DNA of 64,000 nt from Methylotenera mobilis JLW8 (GTDB lineage Bacteria > Pseudomonadota > Gammaproteobacteria > Burkholderiales > Methylophilaceae), in the NCBI RefSeq assembly GCF_000023705.1, contig NC_012968.1, forward strand, positions 1,736,001 through 1,800,000. The letters are read 5' to 3'. How positions within the stretch are numbered: the stretch's first letter is position 1; every line of letters starts with the position of its first letter. A model generated the notes under the pieces. It saw only the letters and a program-made list of their open reading frames with translations. It was not told the origin of the DNA and searched no databases. Both the position numbers and the translations under genes were made by a program. Positions 1-39,665 of this stretch are shown piece by piece.

Positions 1-561
1 GCCAAATGCACCAGCCCAAGAGCCTTTAAATGACTCAGCATCCACATAGCCAAGGTCTACCATCAGCAGCGCATCCAACAACTGGGCTTTAAAGAAATCT
101 GCTCTACGCCCCTCATAGGCTAAGGTAGCCAATGCCGACAAAACATCCAGATTGCCTTGCACCCTGCCGTACTGGGTTTCCATACCCCAAAACGCAATCA
201 GTATCTGCCTAGGTACACCGTACTGCGCCTCAATCTCTGTCAGCAGTGCTTGATGCTTCAGCAACAAAGCACGCCCCTTTTGGACTTTTTTGTTATCAAC
301 ACGCTGCGCAAAATAATCTAAAAACGGACTAATAAACTCAGGCTGCGCTCTATCCAGCTTAATTACGTTCGGCAAGTAGGCAGTACGGCTTACAAAACCC
401 AGTGTAGTGTCATCCGCCATACCGAGCGCTTTAGCCTCAAATCTTATATTCTCTAGCCAAGTAGCAAAATCCTCTTTGGCCGCAGCATTACCTGCAAATA
501 GCAGCGTGCAGCACGCCAACATCAATGGTAAATACTGCAGCAACGCAAGATGCCTATTCAT
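1..561 (-). CDS. mltB: Lytic murein transglycosylase, MltB-like (3' part missing)
   Basis: The minus-strand frame from the ATG at 561 stays open to the window edge, giving 187 residues and no stop, so the C-terminal part lies outside. The N-terminus has a hydrophobic signal sequence (about residues 8-28, ending NAAA-KED). The body reads as the SLT_2/MltB fold, with FLDYFAQRV near residue 77 and FWGMETQYGR near residue 125. The Glu of that motif corresponds to the catalytic acid of the family. Such enzymes cleave the MurNAc-GlcNAc bond of peptidoglycan in the periplasm, forming anhydro-MurNAc ends. The start overlaps the stop of the upstream SDR gene by 8 bases, suggesting translational coupling. 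Whether it is a lipoprotein (MltB) or a soluble relative is unclear; the lipobox is weak. Confidence 0.85.
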   Translation of the reverse strand, partial: MNRHLALLQYLPLMLACCTLLFAGNAAAKEDFATWLENIRFEAKALGMADDTTLGFVSRTAYLPNVIKLDRAQPEFISPFLDYFAQRVDNKKVQKGRALLLKHQALLTEIEAQYGVPRQILIAFWGMETQYGRVQGNLDVLSALATLAYEGRRADFFKAQLLDALLMVDLGYVDAESFKGSWAGAFG

Positions 562-33167: not shown

Positions 33168-34691
33168 ATGAATAATCAATCAAGTAACTCACCCGCAGAT
33201 AAATCACTACTCGCGGCAATAGACCTTGGCTCCAATAGCTTCCGGCTTGAAATTGGCCGACTGGATAGCGGTCATATCGAGCGTGTGGAGTACATCAAAG
33301 AAGCGGTACGACAAGGTGGCGACCTAGATGAGGAGCGTAACCTAACCACCGATGCCATCGAACGCGGCATTCGCTGCTTATCTAGATTTGGTGAGCGCTT
33401 GCAAGGCTTTGATGCATCGCACGTACGTGCAGTTGCCACACAAACCTTGCGCGAAGCTAACAACCGCGATCACTTTCTCAAACTGGCAAAAAAGGCACTA
33501 GGCTTTGAAGTTGAGGTAATTTCCGGCGTAGAAGAAGCGCGTCTTATTTACCAAGGGGTAAGCCGCTTTTTACCCCAGTCCGATGAAAAAAGATTGGTGA
33601 TAGACATCGGCGGACGCTCAACCGAGTTCATCCTTGGTCACGGTTTTGAGTCTACACAAACCGCATCACTGCACGTAGGCTCTGTGGCATGGGCACTCAA
33701 GCACTTTAGCAACGGTGAATTTACTGAAAAGGCATTTACACGCGCTGAGATTTCAGCCGAATCCATCTTTGAAACCTTGGGTAATCACTTCAACAACAAA
33801 CACTGGGATGTCGCCTACGGCGCCTCGGGCACGGTGGGCGCGGTTGCAGATGTGCTAGCGCAATATGGCAAACCAGCTGATTCGGTTAGTAGAGAAAGCC
33901 TATATTGGCTAAAAGAAGAACTGCTCAAAGCAAGATATGTAGATAAGCTACGCTTGAATGGCTTAAAAGAAGACCGCAAACCGGTGATTGCCGGTGGCTT
34001 GTCAGTGCTGATTGCCGTGTTTGAGTTCCTCAACATCGATAACTTAAACGTGGCAAAAGGTGCGCTACGACACGGCTTGCTCCATGACATGCTGGCACGT
34101 GAGAACGACATACTGGACTTGCGTAATACATCAATTCAGCGCTTAGCACGTAAATTTGATGTAGATGAAACGCATGCCAACACGGTTGCTGAAGTTGCTG
34201 AGAAGTTATTTGAGAAAATCAGCGATGGCACAACCTTTGCAGACGGCGAATACTTTAAGCACGCCCGCAAATTACGCTGGGCAGCACAGTTGCACGAAAT
34301 TGGCGGCATCATCTCCCCAGTAGATGCGCACTTGCATGGCGCCTACATCCTAGACCATACAGAACCAGTTGGCTTCTCACAAAGCGAGTTGCATTGCCTA
34401 AGTTTAATTATCTTGGGTCATCGCGGCAAATTAAAGCGATTAGAAGCCGACTTCTCAGACCGTATCTTTATGATGCAATTAATTTGCATGCGTTTGTCTG
34501 TCATCTTATGCCACGCACGGCAAATGCCAAACTTACGCGGCATACAACTCACGTTAAACCACAATGGCTTTAAGGTCACACTACCAAAATCGTGGGCAAC
34601 AAAATATCCGCAATCCCACTACCTGCTGGATGAGGAAACACTGGCATGGCAGAAAATAAACTGGCACTTTGAGCTAGTAACCACAATATAA
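33168..34691 (+). CDS. ppx: Exopolyphosphatase (Ppx/GppA family)
   Basis: This 507-residue actin-fold phosphatase removes terminal phosphate from polyphosphate (or pppGpp). N-terminal ASKHA motifs are AAIDLGSNSFRLEIGR (about residues 15-30), VISGVEEARLIYQGV (about 117) and VIDIGGRSTEFILG (about 142). The catalytic Glu is expected in the EEARL segment. The C-terminal half is the HD-like helical domain typical of long Ppx proteins. It lies 76 bases before the H1-like gene and about 3 kb from ppk1. Specificity for polyP rather than pppGpp is inferred from that context. Confidence 0.93.
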   Translation: MNNQSSNSPADKSLLAAIDLGSNSFRLEIGRLDSGHIERVEYIKEAVRQGGDLDEERNLTTDAIERGIRCLSRFGERLQGFDASHVRAVATQTLREANNRDHFLKLAKKALGFEVEVISGVEEARLIYQGVSRFLPQSDEKRLVIDIGGRSTEFILGHGFESTQTASLHVGSVAWALKHFSNGEFTEKAFTRAEISAESIFETLGNHFNNKHWDVAYGASGTVGAVADVLAQYGKPADSVSRESLYWLKEELLKARYVDKLRLNGLKEDRKPVIAGGLSVLIAVFEFLNIDNLNVAKGALRHGLLHDMLARENDILDLRNTSIQRLARKFDVDETHANTVAEVAEKLFEKISDGTTFADGEYFKHARKLRWAAQLHEIGGIISPVDAHLHGAYILDHTEPVGFSQSELHCLSLIILGHRGKLKRLEADFSDRIFMMQLICMRLSVILCHARQMPNLRGIQLTLNHNGFKVTLPKSWATKYPQSHYLLDEETLAWQKINWHFELVTTI

Positions 34692-34693
34692 AA

Positions 34694-34711
34694 CTGTCAC
34701 AAAAAATTCAT
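34694..34711 (+). promoter_or_regulatory. Pho-box-like repeat upstream of the H1/RHH gene
   Basis: CTGTCAC-AAAA-AATTCAT has a near-perfect first 7-mer of the PhoB box, the AT-rich 4-base spacer and a partial second 7-mer. ATAAAACTGTCAC across 34688-34700 also matches the spacer plus second-repeat part of the consensus in the other phase. It overlaps the ppx stop region and lies upstream of the 34722-34756 palindrome. Confidence 0.4.
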
Positions 34712-34721
34712 TTGCACTAAA

Positions 34722-34756
34722 AAATAAACGGTATAAACTGTTTATATCGTTTATTT
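34722..34756 (+). promoter_or_regulatory. 35-bp near-perfect palindrome, candidate operator
   Basis: The left arm AAATAAACG-G-TATAAAC and right arm GTTTATA-T-CGTTTATTT are exact inverted complements, except for one G/T pair, around the central base 34739. Each arm contains two related TTTA/TAAA half-sites, giving a four-half-site array of the type bound by ribbon-helix-helix dimers. There are few G/C pairs, so it is not an intrinsic terminator. It ends 11 bases before the ATG of the RHH-like protein and probably overlaps its promoter. Confidence 0.6.
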
Positions 34757-34767
34757 GGAGTGTAACC

Positions 34768-35253
34768 ATGTCAAAAATCAATGCAATCCAGGCTGAAGCC
34801 TTAAAATCAACACCTGAAAATACAAGCAGCGTAGAAGCAAACAAACCTGCCACCAAGGCAGCACCAGCCAGCAAAGCTACTGTTAATCCAACTGCAGCGA
34901 AAACCAACGCTGTAAAGCCTGCGACCGCAGCCAAACCAGCAGCAAAAGTTGCCGCTAAAGCTAGCGCCGCTAGCAGCAAAAAACCTGCAGAGAAAACCGC
35001 TGAAAAAAATAAGGTTGCAAAAGAAAAAACGCCTAAACTAAAAATGGAGCGTGATAGCTTTACCATGCCTAAAACTGAGTACGCGCAATTTTCCGTACTA
35101 AAAGAGCGTTTGACTAAATTAGGTCAACCAGCCAAAAAGAGTGAGTTATTACGTGCAGGTATCATGCAGTTAAGCGCAATGACCGATGCCGCCTTAAAGG
35201 CAGCGATGGGTAAAGTACCTGCCATCAAAACCGGCAGACCTAAAAAGAAATAA
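34768..35253 (+). CDS. Histone H1-like protein with ribbon-helix-helix-like C-terminus
   Basis: This 161-residue basic protein has residues 1-90 of low complexity, dominated by Ala, Lys, Pro and Thr (AlgP/histone H1-like). From about residue 93 the composition becomes ordered. A short strand RDSFTMP is followed by helix KTEYAQFSVLKERLTKLG, a turn QPAKKS, and helix ELLRAGIMQLSAMTD, which fits a ribbon-helix-helix pattern. The end KTGRPKKK resembles an AT-hook core. A DNA-binding or nucleoid-associated role is inferred; I know similar unnamed proteins in betaproteobacteria. It lies between ppx and ppk1 and has a striking palindrome directly upstream, suggesting autoregulation. Confidence 0.8.
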   Translation: MSKINAIQAEALKSTPENTSSVEANKPATKAAPASKATVNPTAAKTNAVKPATAAKPAAKVAAKASAASSKKPAEKTAEKNKVAKEKTPKLKMERDSFTMPKTEYAQFSVLKERLTKLGQPAKKSELLRAGIMQLSAMTDAALKAAMGKVPAIKTGRPKKK

Positions 35254-35502: not shown

Positions 35503-36450
35503 CTAGTGTGGGGATTTCTTGATATAAGCGTTAACTTCATCTACCGTTTTGCTAACCTCTACTCGTAAAGCAGGATCTGCCTGTGTCAATTGCAACGCTT
35601 TCTCGGCAGCATCTTTAGCAGCCACCGCATCTCCTTGCAGCAATAGCACATTAGCCAAATTATTATATGCAGCAGCAGAGTTAGGGTGTGCAATCGTTGC
35701 GCTGCGGAAAGCCCTTACCGCATCAGCGTACTGGCCTAGCGCATAAGCACTGTTACCCAGCCCCATCAGCAGCACCAAATGTTTAGGCCAACGTGTTGCA
35801 GCTGCATCATAGGCTAAATAGATATCGGTCTTACTGGCATTGTTCTCAAAAGCCACGATTGCTTTGGCCACGGCATCCGGGTCATCAGCCTTGGGTAAAT
35901 TACCCGGTTTCAATGCGACAAACGCCCAATAATTGCTACGCGCCCAAGTGCGCTGAAAAGCGCTCAAGCTCATTTCAAAACGTTCATAAGTGCCAGAACG
36001 TAACCAGACCAACTCTCGGTCTAGATTGTAGCCAACCACTACCGCATAATGCCAAGAAGGCACCCAAGACAGACCTAAATTCTGCATCACCACCACCACA
36101 TTACCGGAGGCAACTTCTGCCAGCACAGCATCAAGCTTAGGTGCCACTTTAATCGCCAATGCGCCATGTCTGCGTGCTGCAGCCAACATTTCAATTTGTA
36201 AACTACCTTGACGGGCGGGAATATAAACTTCAGGTACCAGTTGCTCTTGCGTCACGCGAATTTCAACAGCATTGAGCGCTGTTGCTAATGCGGCAGGCCC
36301 GCAGTGATATAACGATTGGGGGAAGAATGGGGTTTGAGTCAGTTCATGCTGTCTAGGCAGCGATGTATTTTGTACGGTTTCACGTACACCTGTTGCAGCA
36401 CAGGCATTGAGTAGCAAACAAAAAGCCAGCACGATCCACTTATGTAACAT
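35503..36450 (-). CDS. PA2778-family C39-like cysteine peptidase with TPR repeats
   Basis: This is a lipoprotein of about 315 residues. From the ATG at 36450 the signal MLHKWIVLAFCLLLNAC ends in a lipobox Cys. A papain-like C39 domain follows: catalytic Cys in SLYHCGPAALATAL (about residue 51) and His in VPSWHYAVVVGY (about 134). Tetratricopeptide-like repeats make up the C-terminal third (YALGQYADAVRAFRSA, AYNNLANVLLLQGD). The alternative upstream start at 36471 is a TTG that would bury the signal. It pairs with the PA2779-family gene 45 bases upstream. The substrate is unknown; envelope location is inferred from the lipobox. A hairpin encloses the start codon. Confidence 0.85.
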   Translation of the reverse strand: MLHKWIVLAFCLLLNACAATGVRETVQNTSLPRQHELTQTPFFPQSLYHCGPAALATALNAVEIRVTQEQLVPEVYIPARQGSLQIEMLAAARRHGALAIKVAPKLDAVLAEVASGNVVVVMQNLGLSWVPSWHYAVVVGYNLDRELVWLRSGTYERFEMSLSAFQRTWARSNYWAFVALKPGNLPKADDPDAVAKAIVAFENNASKTDIYLAYDAAATRWPKHLVLLMGLGNSAYALGQYADAVRAFRSATIAHPNSAAAYNNLANVLLLQGDAVAAKDAAEKALQLTQADPALRVEVSKTVDEVNAYIKKSPH

Positions 36451-36459
36451 GCTGGCTTT
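36422..36459 (-). promoter_or_regulatory. Hairpin enclosing the start codon of the peptidase gene
   Basis: On the minus strand AAAGCCAGC (36459-36451), immediately before the ATG, pairs perfectly with GCTGGCTTT (36430-36422). The latter lies inside codons 7-10, leaving a 20-base loop that begins with the ATG. The downstream arm runs into TTTTTG. The structure covers the region where the ribosome binds and also resembles an intrinsic terminator or attenuator. Confidence 0.5.
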
Positions 36460-36495
36460 CTGTTGTAACAAGATCTAAATCAGACTAACACACGA

Positions 36496-36894
36496 TTAGC
36501 GGATAGAACGTGTAAATGGATAAACTTTAGTAAAACCAAGAATATCAGTTAATAACAGCACTAAAAATACCAGAACAATTGCACCAATAATGCCGCTACC
36601 CGCTGGTGCATTTTCAATCTGAGTCGCCATAGCGCTAGCTTCTTCATCTGTAAGTGAAGCAACGCGGCTACGCGCTTGTGCTGGATCAATACCCTTCTCA
36701 ATTAGCGCGGCCTGCACATCTTGACGTGACAAGGCGGTAACAATACGCGCACGGTCTTGATCACCTGCAGTTGAAAAGGCGCTTTCCGCAACCTGTGCCG
36801 AGCTAATCATGGCGGCCTGCACTGTTTGCACAGATCCTGTAAATAAAATAGAAGCGGCAAGAAACGTACTGAAAAAACGTTTAACAAAAATCAT
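36496..36894 (-). CDS. PA2779-family small membrane protein
   Basis: This 132-residue protein has an N-terminal signal sequence (about residues 5-27, ending VQAA). A helical extracytoplasmic region has conserved-looking VTALSRQDVQAALIEKGID, in which DPAQARSRVASLTDEEA follows. A C-terminal transmembrane helix (about 98-120) ends in basic FTRSIR. It matches the PA2779 family as I recall it, nearly always next to a PA2778-type peptidase. Function unknown; co-transcription with the peptidase is likely. It may be a partner or substrate. Confidence 0.8.
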   Translation of the reverse strand: MIFVKRFFSTFLAASILFTGSVQTVQAAMISSAQVAESAFSTAGDQDRARIVTALSRQDVQAALIEKGIDPAQARSRVASLTDEEASAMATQIENAPAGSGIIGAIVLVFLVLLLTDILGFTKVYPFTRSIR

Positions 36895-37088: not shown

Positions 37089-37562
37089 TCAAAAACTAGG
37101 TTGTTTCACGGCATCAATGTAGTAATGTGCCAGGCCATTCACCTGGCGCTGGGTTAGCCACCAAACTGCGCCCTTCTTTACCACGCACGCACTTTCGTGT
37201 AGACCTAGCAAGCTGCTGATTAGTAAACCAAGATTAGGCTGATGCCCCACCAATAGAATAGTTTGCGTGTTATCCTGATTGGCAACTGCTTGCAGTATGC
37301 GCTCCACATTACTCTTTATGTTTAAACAATCAGTAATGTTAACTTCCAGATGATTTAAGTCTTGCAAGGCCTGCACTGTTTGCAGGCAGCGTCGTGCCGG
37401 GCTGCATAGAATCTCAGTAGACTCCGGCAAATGCTTATACAGCCACTTTGCCATCTTGGCTGCATCCTTAAGACCTCGCTTAGTTAATGCACGATCATGG
37501 TCGCGACCGCTGTCACTTTCCACTTCGGCCTCTGCATGCCGCCAAATGATTAAATTTGCCAT
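37089..37562 (-). CDS. sixA: Phosphohistidine phosphatase SixA-like
   Basis: This 157-residue histidine-phosphatase-superfamily protein has the RHG-type motif LIIWRHAEAE at the N-terminus, supplying the nucleophilic His. SPARRCLQTVQAL (about residue 55) and LLVGHQPNLGLLISSLLG (about 104-121, second His) complete the site. Its short length fits SixA rather than phosphoglycerate mutases. SixA acts on phosphohistidine in phosphotransfer proteins. Here it lies 27 bases after ppk1 on the same strand, an arrangement common in proteobacteria. Its relation to polyphosphate is not established; a role on the Ppk phosphohistidine is only conceivable. Confidence 0.88.
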   Translation of the reverse strand: MANLIIWRHAEAEVESDSGRDHDRALTKRGLKDAAKMAKWLYKHLPESTEILCSPARRCLQTVQALQDLNHLEVNITDCLNIKSNVERILQAVANQDNTQTILLVGHQPNLGLLISSLLGLHESACVVKKGAVWWLTQRQVNGLAHYYIDAVKQPSF

Positions 37563-37589: not shown

Positions 37590-39665
37590 TTAATCCGTAT
37601 ATTTATGCAGTAATTGCAGTTGCGCACTATAAATACGCAGCGGCTCACCAGGCTTAGCTTTATGTGCTTGCGCTGCGATAGGCTGATAGGTGCCATCGGC
37701 ATTTAATATCCATGCATCATGGTTATCTTCTAAGTACATTTGGCAGCATTCCTGCAAAATTCGCGCACGATTTTTAGCATCGGTAATCGGCCATGCAATT
37801 TCAACACGGCGCATCATATTGCGGTTCATCCAATCGGCGCTGGAGAGCCACATATGTTCAACTTCTGCGATTTTAAAATAAAACACGCGCGAATGTTCAA
37901 GCAAGCGACCAATCACCGAACGTACACGAATTCGGCCATTCAAGCCCGGCGCATCAATCGGCAAGATGCAAGCGCCACGCAGAATCAAATCCACTTCCAC
38001 TCCGGCACGTCCTGCCCGCACCAACGCCTTCACCAATGCTTCATCCGTTAACGCATTCATTTTCAGAATAATAGAAGCAGGTTTACCAGCTTTTGCACAC
38101 AACTCTGCAGCTCTAATCTTAGCCAGCATCTGTTTATGCAAATTAAACGGCGCGACCAGCAGTTTCTGCATACGAGGCAATTTAACCTGACTGGCAATAT
38201 GCCTAAACAGATGCTCCATATCGCGGGTAATCTGCGCGTCAGCAGTCAGCATACTCACATCGGTATAAAGGCGCGCTGTTCTTGGGTTATAGTTTCCAGT
38301 AGAAACATGCCCATAATACTGAAGGCCGGAAGCCTCACGGCGCATTACCAATAACATTTTGGCATGGGTTTTGAGCCCCACTATGCCATAAACCACTTGC
38401 GCACCCACGGATTCCAAATCCTCAGCCCAGTTGATGTTGGCCTCTTCATCAAACCTAGCTTTAAGTTCCACCACAGCCATCACCTCTTTACCGCGGCGCA
38501 CTGCTTCTTGCAGCAGCTTCAGCATACGCGGGTCTGAACCAGTACGGTATATAGTTTGCTGGATAGAAAGCACATCAGGGTCATGCACTGCTTCACGCAG
38601 AAAATCAATCACCGATTCAAAACTCTCATAAGGCTGATGGATAAGTATATCCTGCTGCTTGAGCTGTGAGAAAAACGACTGATTTGGCACCAACTGCTGG
38701 CTAATTTGCGGCTCATATGGCTTAAATTTGAGTTGATCGCCCTCCGCCAAATCGGCCAACTGCATCAAACGTGCGAGATTCACCAAACCATTCACGCGGT
38801 ATAGCGACTGTTTAGGCAAATCAAATTGCTGCAGCAAAAGCTTAGCTAGTTTTTCATCGCAACCGTGCGATACTTCCAAGCGCACCGCCTCACCAAAATG
38901 GCGCTGTACTAAGCCTTTTCTTAATGCTGTGCGCAGGTTTTTTACGTCTTCTTCATCCACCGCCAAATCAGAGTGACGAGTTACCCTGAACTGTGAAAAA
39001 CATAGCACTTCACGGCCAGTAAATAAGCTAGCCAGATGCGCACGGATAACACTGGATAACGACACAAACTTTTGTTGCTTGCCACTCAAGTGTTTAGGCA
39101 GCTTAATCAAGCGTGGCAGTGCTCTCGGCACTTTCACGATAGCAATATTGTTATTGCGACCAAATGCATCGGTGCCACCCAGTGACACAATAAAGTTTAA
39201 TGACTTATTAGCTACTTGCGGAAAAGGGTGTGAGGGGTCGAGCGCAACTGGCACCAAGAGCGGACGCACACTAGACTCAAAATAACGCGCCACCCAACGC
39301 TTTTGCTCCAATGTACGCTCTGCGTTCGAGACCAAATAGACGCCAGCGCTCGCCAGTGCAGGCATTAAATCCGTATTAAAAATCTCGTACTGCTTTTCTA
39401 CTAAGGTATGTGCAGCTTTGGATATTTCCAAATAGCTTTGTACGTTGACGTCGGTCTTCTTTTCATTGTCACGCATAGCATCCACATGCGGCGCGGCGCG
39501 TACTTCAAAAAACTCATCAAGGTTAGAAGACACGATGCAAAGAAAACGCAGGCGTTCAAGCAAAGGATATTCCGCATTTTGGGCAAGACTCAATACGCGC
39601 GCATTAAACGCCAATATGCTGATGTCTCGATTAAGTAATTTAAGCGGTGAATTGACTGAACGCAT
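37590..39665 (-). CDS. ppk1: Polyphosphate kinase 1
   Basis: This 691-residue enzyme makes inorganic polyphosphate from ATP through a phosphohistidine. The N-terminal NRDISILAFNARVLSLA and FLCIVSSNLDEFFEVRAA blocks are typical. The catalytic PLD-like domains contain GLKTHAKMLLVMRRE (phospho-His region, about residue 430) and LEHSRVFYF (about 575). LSSADWMNRNMMRRVE follows. Length is normal. It lies upstream of sixA. The 5' region holds Pho-box-like repeats and an inverted repeat at 39701-39743, consistent with phosphate-starvation control. Confidence 0.97.
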   Translation of the reverse strand: MRSVNSPLKLLNRDISILAFNARVLSLAQNAEYPLLERLRFLCIVSSNLDEFFEVRAAPHVDAMRDNEKKTDVNVQSYLEISKAAHTLVEKQYEIFNTDLMPALASAGVYLVSNAERTLEQKRWVARYFESSVRPLLVPVALDPSHPFPQVANKSLNFIVSLGGTDAFGRNNNIAIVKVPRALPRLIKLPKHLSGKQQKFVSLSSVIRAHLASLFTGREVLCFSQFRVTRHSDLAVDEEDVKNLRTALRKGLVQRHFGEAVRLEVSHGCDEKLAKLLLQQFDLPKQSLYRVNGLVNLARLMQLADLAEGDQLKFKPYEPQISQQLVPNQSFFSQLKQQDILIHQPYESFESVIDFLREAVHDPDVLSIQQTIYRTGSDPRMLKLLQEAVRRGKEVMAVVELKARFDEEANINWAEDLESVGAQVVYGIVGLKTHAKMLLVMRREASGLQYYGHVSTGNYNPRTARLYTDVSMLTADAQITRDMEHLFRHIASQVKLPRMQKLLVAPFNLHKQMLAKIRAAELCAKAGKPASIILKMNALTDEALVKALVRAGRAGVEVDLILRGACILPIDAPGLNGRIRVRSVIGRLLEHSRVFYFKIAEVEHMWLSSADWMNRNMMRRVEIAWPITDAKNRARILQECCQMYLEDNHDAWILNADGTYQPIAAQAHKAKPGEPLRIYSAQLQLLHKYTD

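Follow-up and report, generated by a model that had tools for sequence, protein, structure and literature searches.

In the genome of Methylotenera mobilis JLW8, the gene of a basic protein of 161 residues lies between the genes for an exopolyphosphatase (ppx) and a polyphosphate kinase (ppk), and a row of three contiguous 9-bp subsites overlaps its promoter and accompanies it from genome to genome. We consider it rather probable that the product is a dedicated autorepressing protein of the ribbon-helix-helix (RHH) type with an Ala/Lys/Pro tail that binds polyanions, and that it serves polyphosphate storage. The window, i.e. the whole stretch of DNA that was analysed, has a length of 64,000 nucleotides and corresponds to C1:1736001-1800000 of a host genome of 2,547,570 bases in one contig. 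The features of the locus are collected in Table 1.

How bacteria measure polyphosphate and match their granule proteins to it is poorly understood, and this gene family offers a concrete handle on the problem. The gene occurs in cultured Methylotenera, Methylophilus, Acidovorax, Polaromonas and relatives, and one predicted operator per genome, in the genus examined, makes sensing of the polymer directly testable. Furthermore, the analysis provides a candidate function and a candidate regulatory site for a family with at least 574 relatives matched in named genomes, which are called 'hypothetical protein' where they are annotated.

Table 1. Features of the locus. Positions refer to the window, except where residues of the 161-aa protein are given.
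Feature	Position	Strand	Basis or remark
ppx, exopolyphosphatase, upstream neighbour	33168-34691	+	Pfam Ppx-GppA, E 6e-71
Pho-box-like element CTGTCACAAAAAATTCAT, candidate PhoB site	34694-34711	+	14/18 to E. coli-type consensus
-35 element TTGCAC	34712-34717	+	TTG 16 bp from TAAACT
Imperfect 35-bp palindrome	34722-34756	.	inverted-repeat search, 17-nt arms
Operator subsite 1, AAACGGTAT	34726-34734	.	9-bp array
-10 element TAAACT, inside operator	34734-34739	+	position conserved with -35
Operator subsite 2 (centre), AAACTGTTT	34735-34743	.	9-bp array
Operator subsite 3, ATATCGTTT	34744-34752	.	9-bp array
Ribosome-binding site GGAG	34757-34760	+	read directly from the sequence
H1-tailed RHH-like protein, 161 aa	34768-35253	+	ORF; single copy in genome
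Tail of the 161-aa protein	residues 1 to about 88-90		Ala/Lys/Pro-rich, N-terminal
Ordered domain of the 161-aa protein	residues ~90-148		followed by the KTGRP end at 154-158
Conserved RHH-like domain (RDSFTMP strand segment, helix A, helix B, extra helix C)	35035-35211	+	AlphaFold helices, hhalign to RHH_1
sixA-like histidine phosphatase, cassette member	37089-37562	-	sole NCBIfam match sixA TIGR00249, 71.5 bits vs 74.5 cut-off
ppk, polyphosphate kinase 1	37590-39665	-	Pfam PP_kinase domains

Operator array and promoter

The initial annotation of this DNA had reported a palindrome in front of the open reading frame, and this was recovered by the inverted-repeat search. The two arms of 17 nt (34722-34738 and 34740-34756) are 94% complementary, stand 1 nt apart and end 11 bp before the ORF. 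Even when 3 mismatches are allowed, the 2.55-Mb genome contains no second copy, and within the genus the palindrome is located a few bases 5' of the start codon in 26 of 26 readable upstream regions.

Rows of three AWACNGTWT 9-mers were scored, at every period from 5 to 15, in 144 upstream regions drawn from genomes of the genus, family and order. At a period of 9, a score of at least 22/27 was reached in 122 of the 144 regions, against 0-4 at the other periods; a subsite spacing of 10 was rejected, since period 9 alone stands out. After removal of duplicate species the array was present in 112 of 134 upstream regions, and the threshold was reached by about 0.1% of dinucleotide shuffles. The palindrome is not a chance feature. 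The original description as four TTTA half-sites captures the outer face of this array, which is better described by three contiguous 9-bp palindromic subsites. In some relatives the subsites are arranged as direct repeats (in L170, AAACTGTAT-AAACCGTAT-AAACCGTTT), and the existence of such versions argues that selection maintains the 9-bp unit and not the palindrome as a whole. A row of 9-bp subsites is what would be expected for stacked dimers.

Genome-wide operator scans were pattern-based. Among 52 genomes of the genus, 47 have exactly one site matching the array pattern, placed at the gene; in 45 of these both strands match at one place, and in two genomes one strand only. Five genomes have no site. 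In four of them (G006, G169, G174 and G176) the gene was likewise not found, and in the fifth, G015, the contig begins within the gene (L011). The operator thus occurs where the gene does and is missing where the gene is missing. The array is also retained upstream of relatives with only 45-60% domain identity and at loci with unrelated neighbours, which means that it follows the gene and not ppx. The search for other operator targets gave one weak extra site in 1.5 Mb of loci. Because other operator copies are absent, we take the role of the protein to be structural or local rather than one of global regulation.

The promoter holds a fixed position relative to the array. In most of 44 non-redundant upstream regions from Methylophilaceae, a -35 element of the TTGACA/TTGCAN type is found exactly 16 bp before TAAACT, and many of them carry TTGACA itself. 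The mean number of -35 matches at a spacer of 16 was 3.88 out of 6, compared to 0.7-2.6 at other spacers. TAAACT straddles the first and the central subsite, and the palindrome has its invariant centre at the final T of this hexamer; the repeated subsites lie over the promoter of the gene they accompany. Binding would be expected to repress by blocking RNA polymerase, because the array covers the -10 element and the expected start, which would fall about 7 nt past TAAACT, close to where subsites 2 and 3 meet. The protein very probably binds the array and represses its own gene. The earlier suggestion of an autoregulated DNA-binding protein thereby gains support from an array that lies over the gene's own promoter and is linked to the gene.

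Binding by the protein itself is a prediction, and a separate, unlinked repressor could in principle occupy the array. We find this improbable, as array and gene come and go together with one site per genome, and a separate single-target regulator that always tracks the gene is the less economical explanation. Additionally, an inverted repeat that follows the ppx stop codon and directly precedes a start codon could be read as an RNA element or as the ppx terminator, and not as a protein site. However, the conserved promoter places the start point inside the palindrome so that only half of it would be transcribed, direct-repeat versions retain the 9-bp unit but can no longer form the hairpin, and the array accompanies the gene to loci that have no ppx upstream. 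The promoter geometry together with the direct-repeat copies largely refutes the hairpin, to which we give hardly any credence.

Basic tail and C-terminal domain

The N-terminal 90 residues consist of Ala, Lys and Pro to 57%, confirming the basic Ala/Lys/Pro tail of the initial annotation, and the net charge of the whole protein is about +22. For 68 relatives the median tail has 82 aa, 57% Ala+Lys+Pro and a net charge of +14, as far as composition only is considered. By composition the protein has the Ala/Lys/Pro-rich basic tail of AlgP and other H1-like proteins. Preceding the fast-changing tail is a peptide conserved in the genus, MSKINxxQAxAL (34768-34803), which can be recognised in sister genera too (L082, L083, L084) and is a possible interaction motif. 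The architecture varies among relatives: in one (L062 of genome G234) the order is swapped, with the basic tail C-terminal to the RHH-like domain, and in some the tail is short or missing (almost absent in L094).

The conserved part of the protein is the last 75 residues (RDSFTMP...KKSELLRAGI...KTGRPKKK), and the invariant residues of the domain are R, D, P, KK and R. The extreme end of the protein had been called AT-hook-like. The GRP core is indeed present in the conserved K-T-G-R-P, but the Arg that precedes it in the RGRP of AT-hooks is missing, and Pfam gave no AT-hook match in the window protein.

An RHH fold had been proposed for the C-terminal part, and the evidence on this comes from profiles and from structure models. 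No Pfam or NCBIfam family scored above its cut-off for the window protein or for its 60-residue C-terminal domain; RHH_1 (PF01402) was hit at an E-value of 0.11 in one of 53 family members, which places the domain outside the curated model. When hhalign was run against 25 RHH_1 domains from relatives, the probability was 72% and the E-value 3e-5 (one-to-one), with 37 columns in register, RDSFTMP being aligned with the strand and KKSELLRAGI with helix B. None of 200 column shuffles equalled this score. Two AlphaFold models, having a mean pLDDT of 85 and 89, show helices at the places expected from the proposed fold (residues ~102-117, 124-137 and 140-148), and the strand-like N-terminal segment is assigned in one of the two. 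The alignment and the helix positions together give the strand-helix-helix register of the RHH superfamily, with a helix A that exceeds the one of RHH_1 by about 5 residues.

Foldseek searches against PDB and BFVD, as well as VIA-align, returned no significant match for monomer models of 58-75 residues, in which the strand would pair only in a dimer; a sequence search of the PDB gave chance matches only. The profile-profile match and the helix topology speak for the proposed fold, and the structure searches, in our judgement, decided neither way. Since the profiles align but the structure searches gave no relative, we regard the RHH fold as likely and not as proven. From the alignment we infer that R95, S97 and T99 occupy the positions of the DNA-reading strand residues of Arc.

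RHH repressors such as MetJ, Arc, CopG and omega bind tandem operators made of contiguous short palindromic subsites and regulate their own genes. The window protein resembles them in the strand-helix-helix register, in the R/S/T pattern of the strand, in the subsite array and in the predicted autoregulation. It differs from them by an extra third helix, the longer helix A, a 9-bp period, the basic tail and the KTGRP end.

Gene neighbourhood and distribution

The setting in a polyphosphate cluster, pointed out from the beginning, holds: ppx and ppk flank the gene, and the neighbourhood is evolutionarily conserved. Among the best 80 named relatives, the full arrangement ppx>gene><sixA<ppk is seen in 59, and another 8 have gene><sixA<ppk but no ppx match, giving a total of 67 of the 80. 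The order ppx-gene-sixA-ppk is kept in both Methylophilaceae and Comamonadaceae. A toxin-antitoxin pair was rejected because no small partner gene is conserved at the locus, where ppx, sixA and ppk are the neighbours that recur; a phage origin was likewise rejected, as no phage match was obtained. In the window, the genes for a DUF6627 protein and for a C39-like peptidase with TPR repeats separate the gene from sixA (35503-36894, minus strand). This insertion is found only in the M. mobilis/M. oryzisoli group (3 of the best 80 relatives), and elsewhere the gene adjoins sixA.

Relatives were found in 92 of 187 genomes from the family, in 66 of 300 from the order and in 6 of 274 from the class, and the closest named relatives among the matches listed belong to Methylotenera. 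Plasmid matches are few and mostly fall on large Burkholderiales replicons; where such plasmid records are annotated, the product name of the relative is 'hypothetical protein'. Far from the main taxonomic range, the domain has a lone cyanobacterial relative on a Calothrix plasmid (AP018278.1, 27550-27759).

Across the order, the gene is found beside ppk in f25 (L068, L080), before (rpiA-)phoU-ppx in f15 (L067, L074) and after ppx in f8 (L099), and in L097 ppx is at a distance of 4 kb. In Azonexaceae-type loci it heads a pstS-pstC-pstA-pstB-phoU series in the same direction (L069 of f21; also L146 and L154). About half of the order-wide loci have no phosphate gene within approximately 8 kb, so the link to polyphosphate is not universal.

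In trees of ppk and of ppx, the cassette-bearing Methylophilaceae join Comamonadaceae, away from other Methylophilaceae. The separation from the other Methylophilaceae, represented by L089 in the ppk tree and by L089 and L094 in the ppx tree, has full support. The simplest reading is that the cassette moved as a whole from one family to another. All 92 carriers of the gene in the family possess ppk (92/92), compared to 56 of 95 non-carriers; this co-occurrence is used as supporting evidence only, because the gene and ppk frequently lie side by side and many of the genomes are incomplete. Three genomes of genus g31 (G101, G102, G104) have a cassette-type ppk and no detectable gene, which indicates that loss of the gene need not involve ppk.

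These distributions bear on another explanation, according to which the product is an autoregulated H1-like nucleoid protein with broad DNA binding, and its proximity to ppx and ppk is a frozen neighbourhood without any tie to polyphosphate. Many relatives do sit elsewhere (L070, L073, L076-L079, L081, L095, L096, L098), and most of the relatives placed elsewhere keep the array with no phosphate genes nearby. However, phosphate arrangements of varied kinds recur (the ppx/ppk cassette, the pstSCAB-phoU head, phoU-ppx and ppk alone), and the cassette appears to have travelled as a whole. We regard a frozen neighbourhood as unlikely, and prefer a protein that serves polyphosphate storage.

Known systems and a possible polyphosphate circuit

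AlgP of Pseudomonas aeruginosa has been tied to polyphosphate granules by proteomics and localisation, and is built from an alpha-helical N-terminal domain and a C-terminal tail of KPAA repeats (PMC9239181). The window protein is likewise a small basic protein with a Lys/Pro/Ala tail (disordered in AlgP) and with DNA binding, which is predicted here; no homology is claimed. In contrast to AlgP, it has no tandem KPAA repeats and no alpha-helical N-terminal domain, the tail being N-terminal and irregular and the ordered domain C-terminal and RHH-like, and it has a dedicated operator array.

PhaR of Ralstonia eutropha represses its own gene among others and leaves the DNA when PHB forms (PMC3079617). 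By analogy, the logic proposed for the window protein would be the same, namely an autorepressor released by a storage polymer. PhaR also represses phaP and senses PHB, whereas the window protein has a single operator in each genome and differs in its domain and, as proposed, in its polymer. CHAD-domain phosins are another group of non-enzymatic polyphosphate-related proteins (PMC6537752). Their polyphosphate-binding domain is alpha-helical and unrelated to the RHH-like domain described here. We know of no promoter operator for CHAD-domain phosins.

Literature joining polyphosphate granules with RHH proteins was not found in a search that covered few of the subscription journals, and the literature found to name both H1-like and RHH proteins concerns P. 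aeruginosa. The parts of the system are each of known kinds, and their combination appears to be undescribed in the literature searched.

In the circuit that we propose, dimers of the C-terminal domain would bind the three contiguous 9-bp subsites (AWACNGTWT) over the -10 element and the start, and plentiful free protein would shut off its own promoter. Accumulating polyphosphate would draw both tail and domain onto the polymer, so that the level of free protein falls, the operator is cleared and more protein is made; the amount of protein would then follow the amount of polyphosphate. The protein could also tie granules to the nucleoid, as has been proposed for AlgP. That polyphosphate pulls the protein off the operator in the manner of PhaR, and that the tail links granules to the nucleoid in the manner of AlgP, is drawn from analogy and put forward tentatively. 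If true, it would constitute a polyphosphate counterpart of the PhaR/PHB circuit. Somewhat doubtful in our view is the full combination, i.e. one protein acting as granule/nucleoid linker and as polyphosphate sensor, a polymer competing with a single operator, and a mobile ppx-gene-sixA-ppk cassette in beta-proteobacteria.

The operator might also do no more than hold the level of an AlgP-like granule-positioning protein constant, without polyphosphate being sensed through it. The AlgP/H1-like composition of the tail (PMC9239181), the synteny and the single operator per genome all fit such a protein, but all of this anatomy is shared with the explanation that we prefer, the titration step being the one exception. 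We consider positioning without sensing a possibility to be taken seriously, if not the probable one.

For the autorepressing storage protein that we prefer, the Pho-box-like element just upstream may turn the promoter on under phosphate limitation. The element is conserved in most of the genus. Its core matches TGTCAYAAAWNWKTCAY with 0 mismatches, and at up to 1 mismatch the genome contains 5 sites, one of the other four being located directly upstream of phoB (TIGR02154, E 1e-104). The pattern is not enriched genome-wide, and a reversed control pattern gave 3 genome sites. Because the reversed control also produced three matches, PhoB control is treated as a lead only, and the assignment of the element as a PhoB site is suggestive. 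Several of the Azonexaceae-type upstream regions carry a Pho-box-like CTGTCAAAAAAnTTTAA, and their 9-bp array is only degenerate. In Methylophilus-type promoters (L121, L124), a Pho-box-like TTTTTATGACAGTTGACA in reverse orientation overlaps the -35 element.
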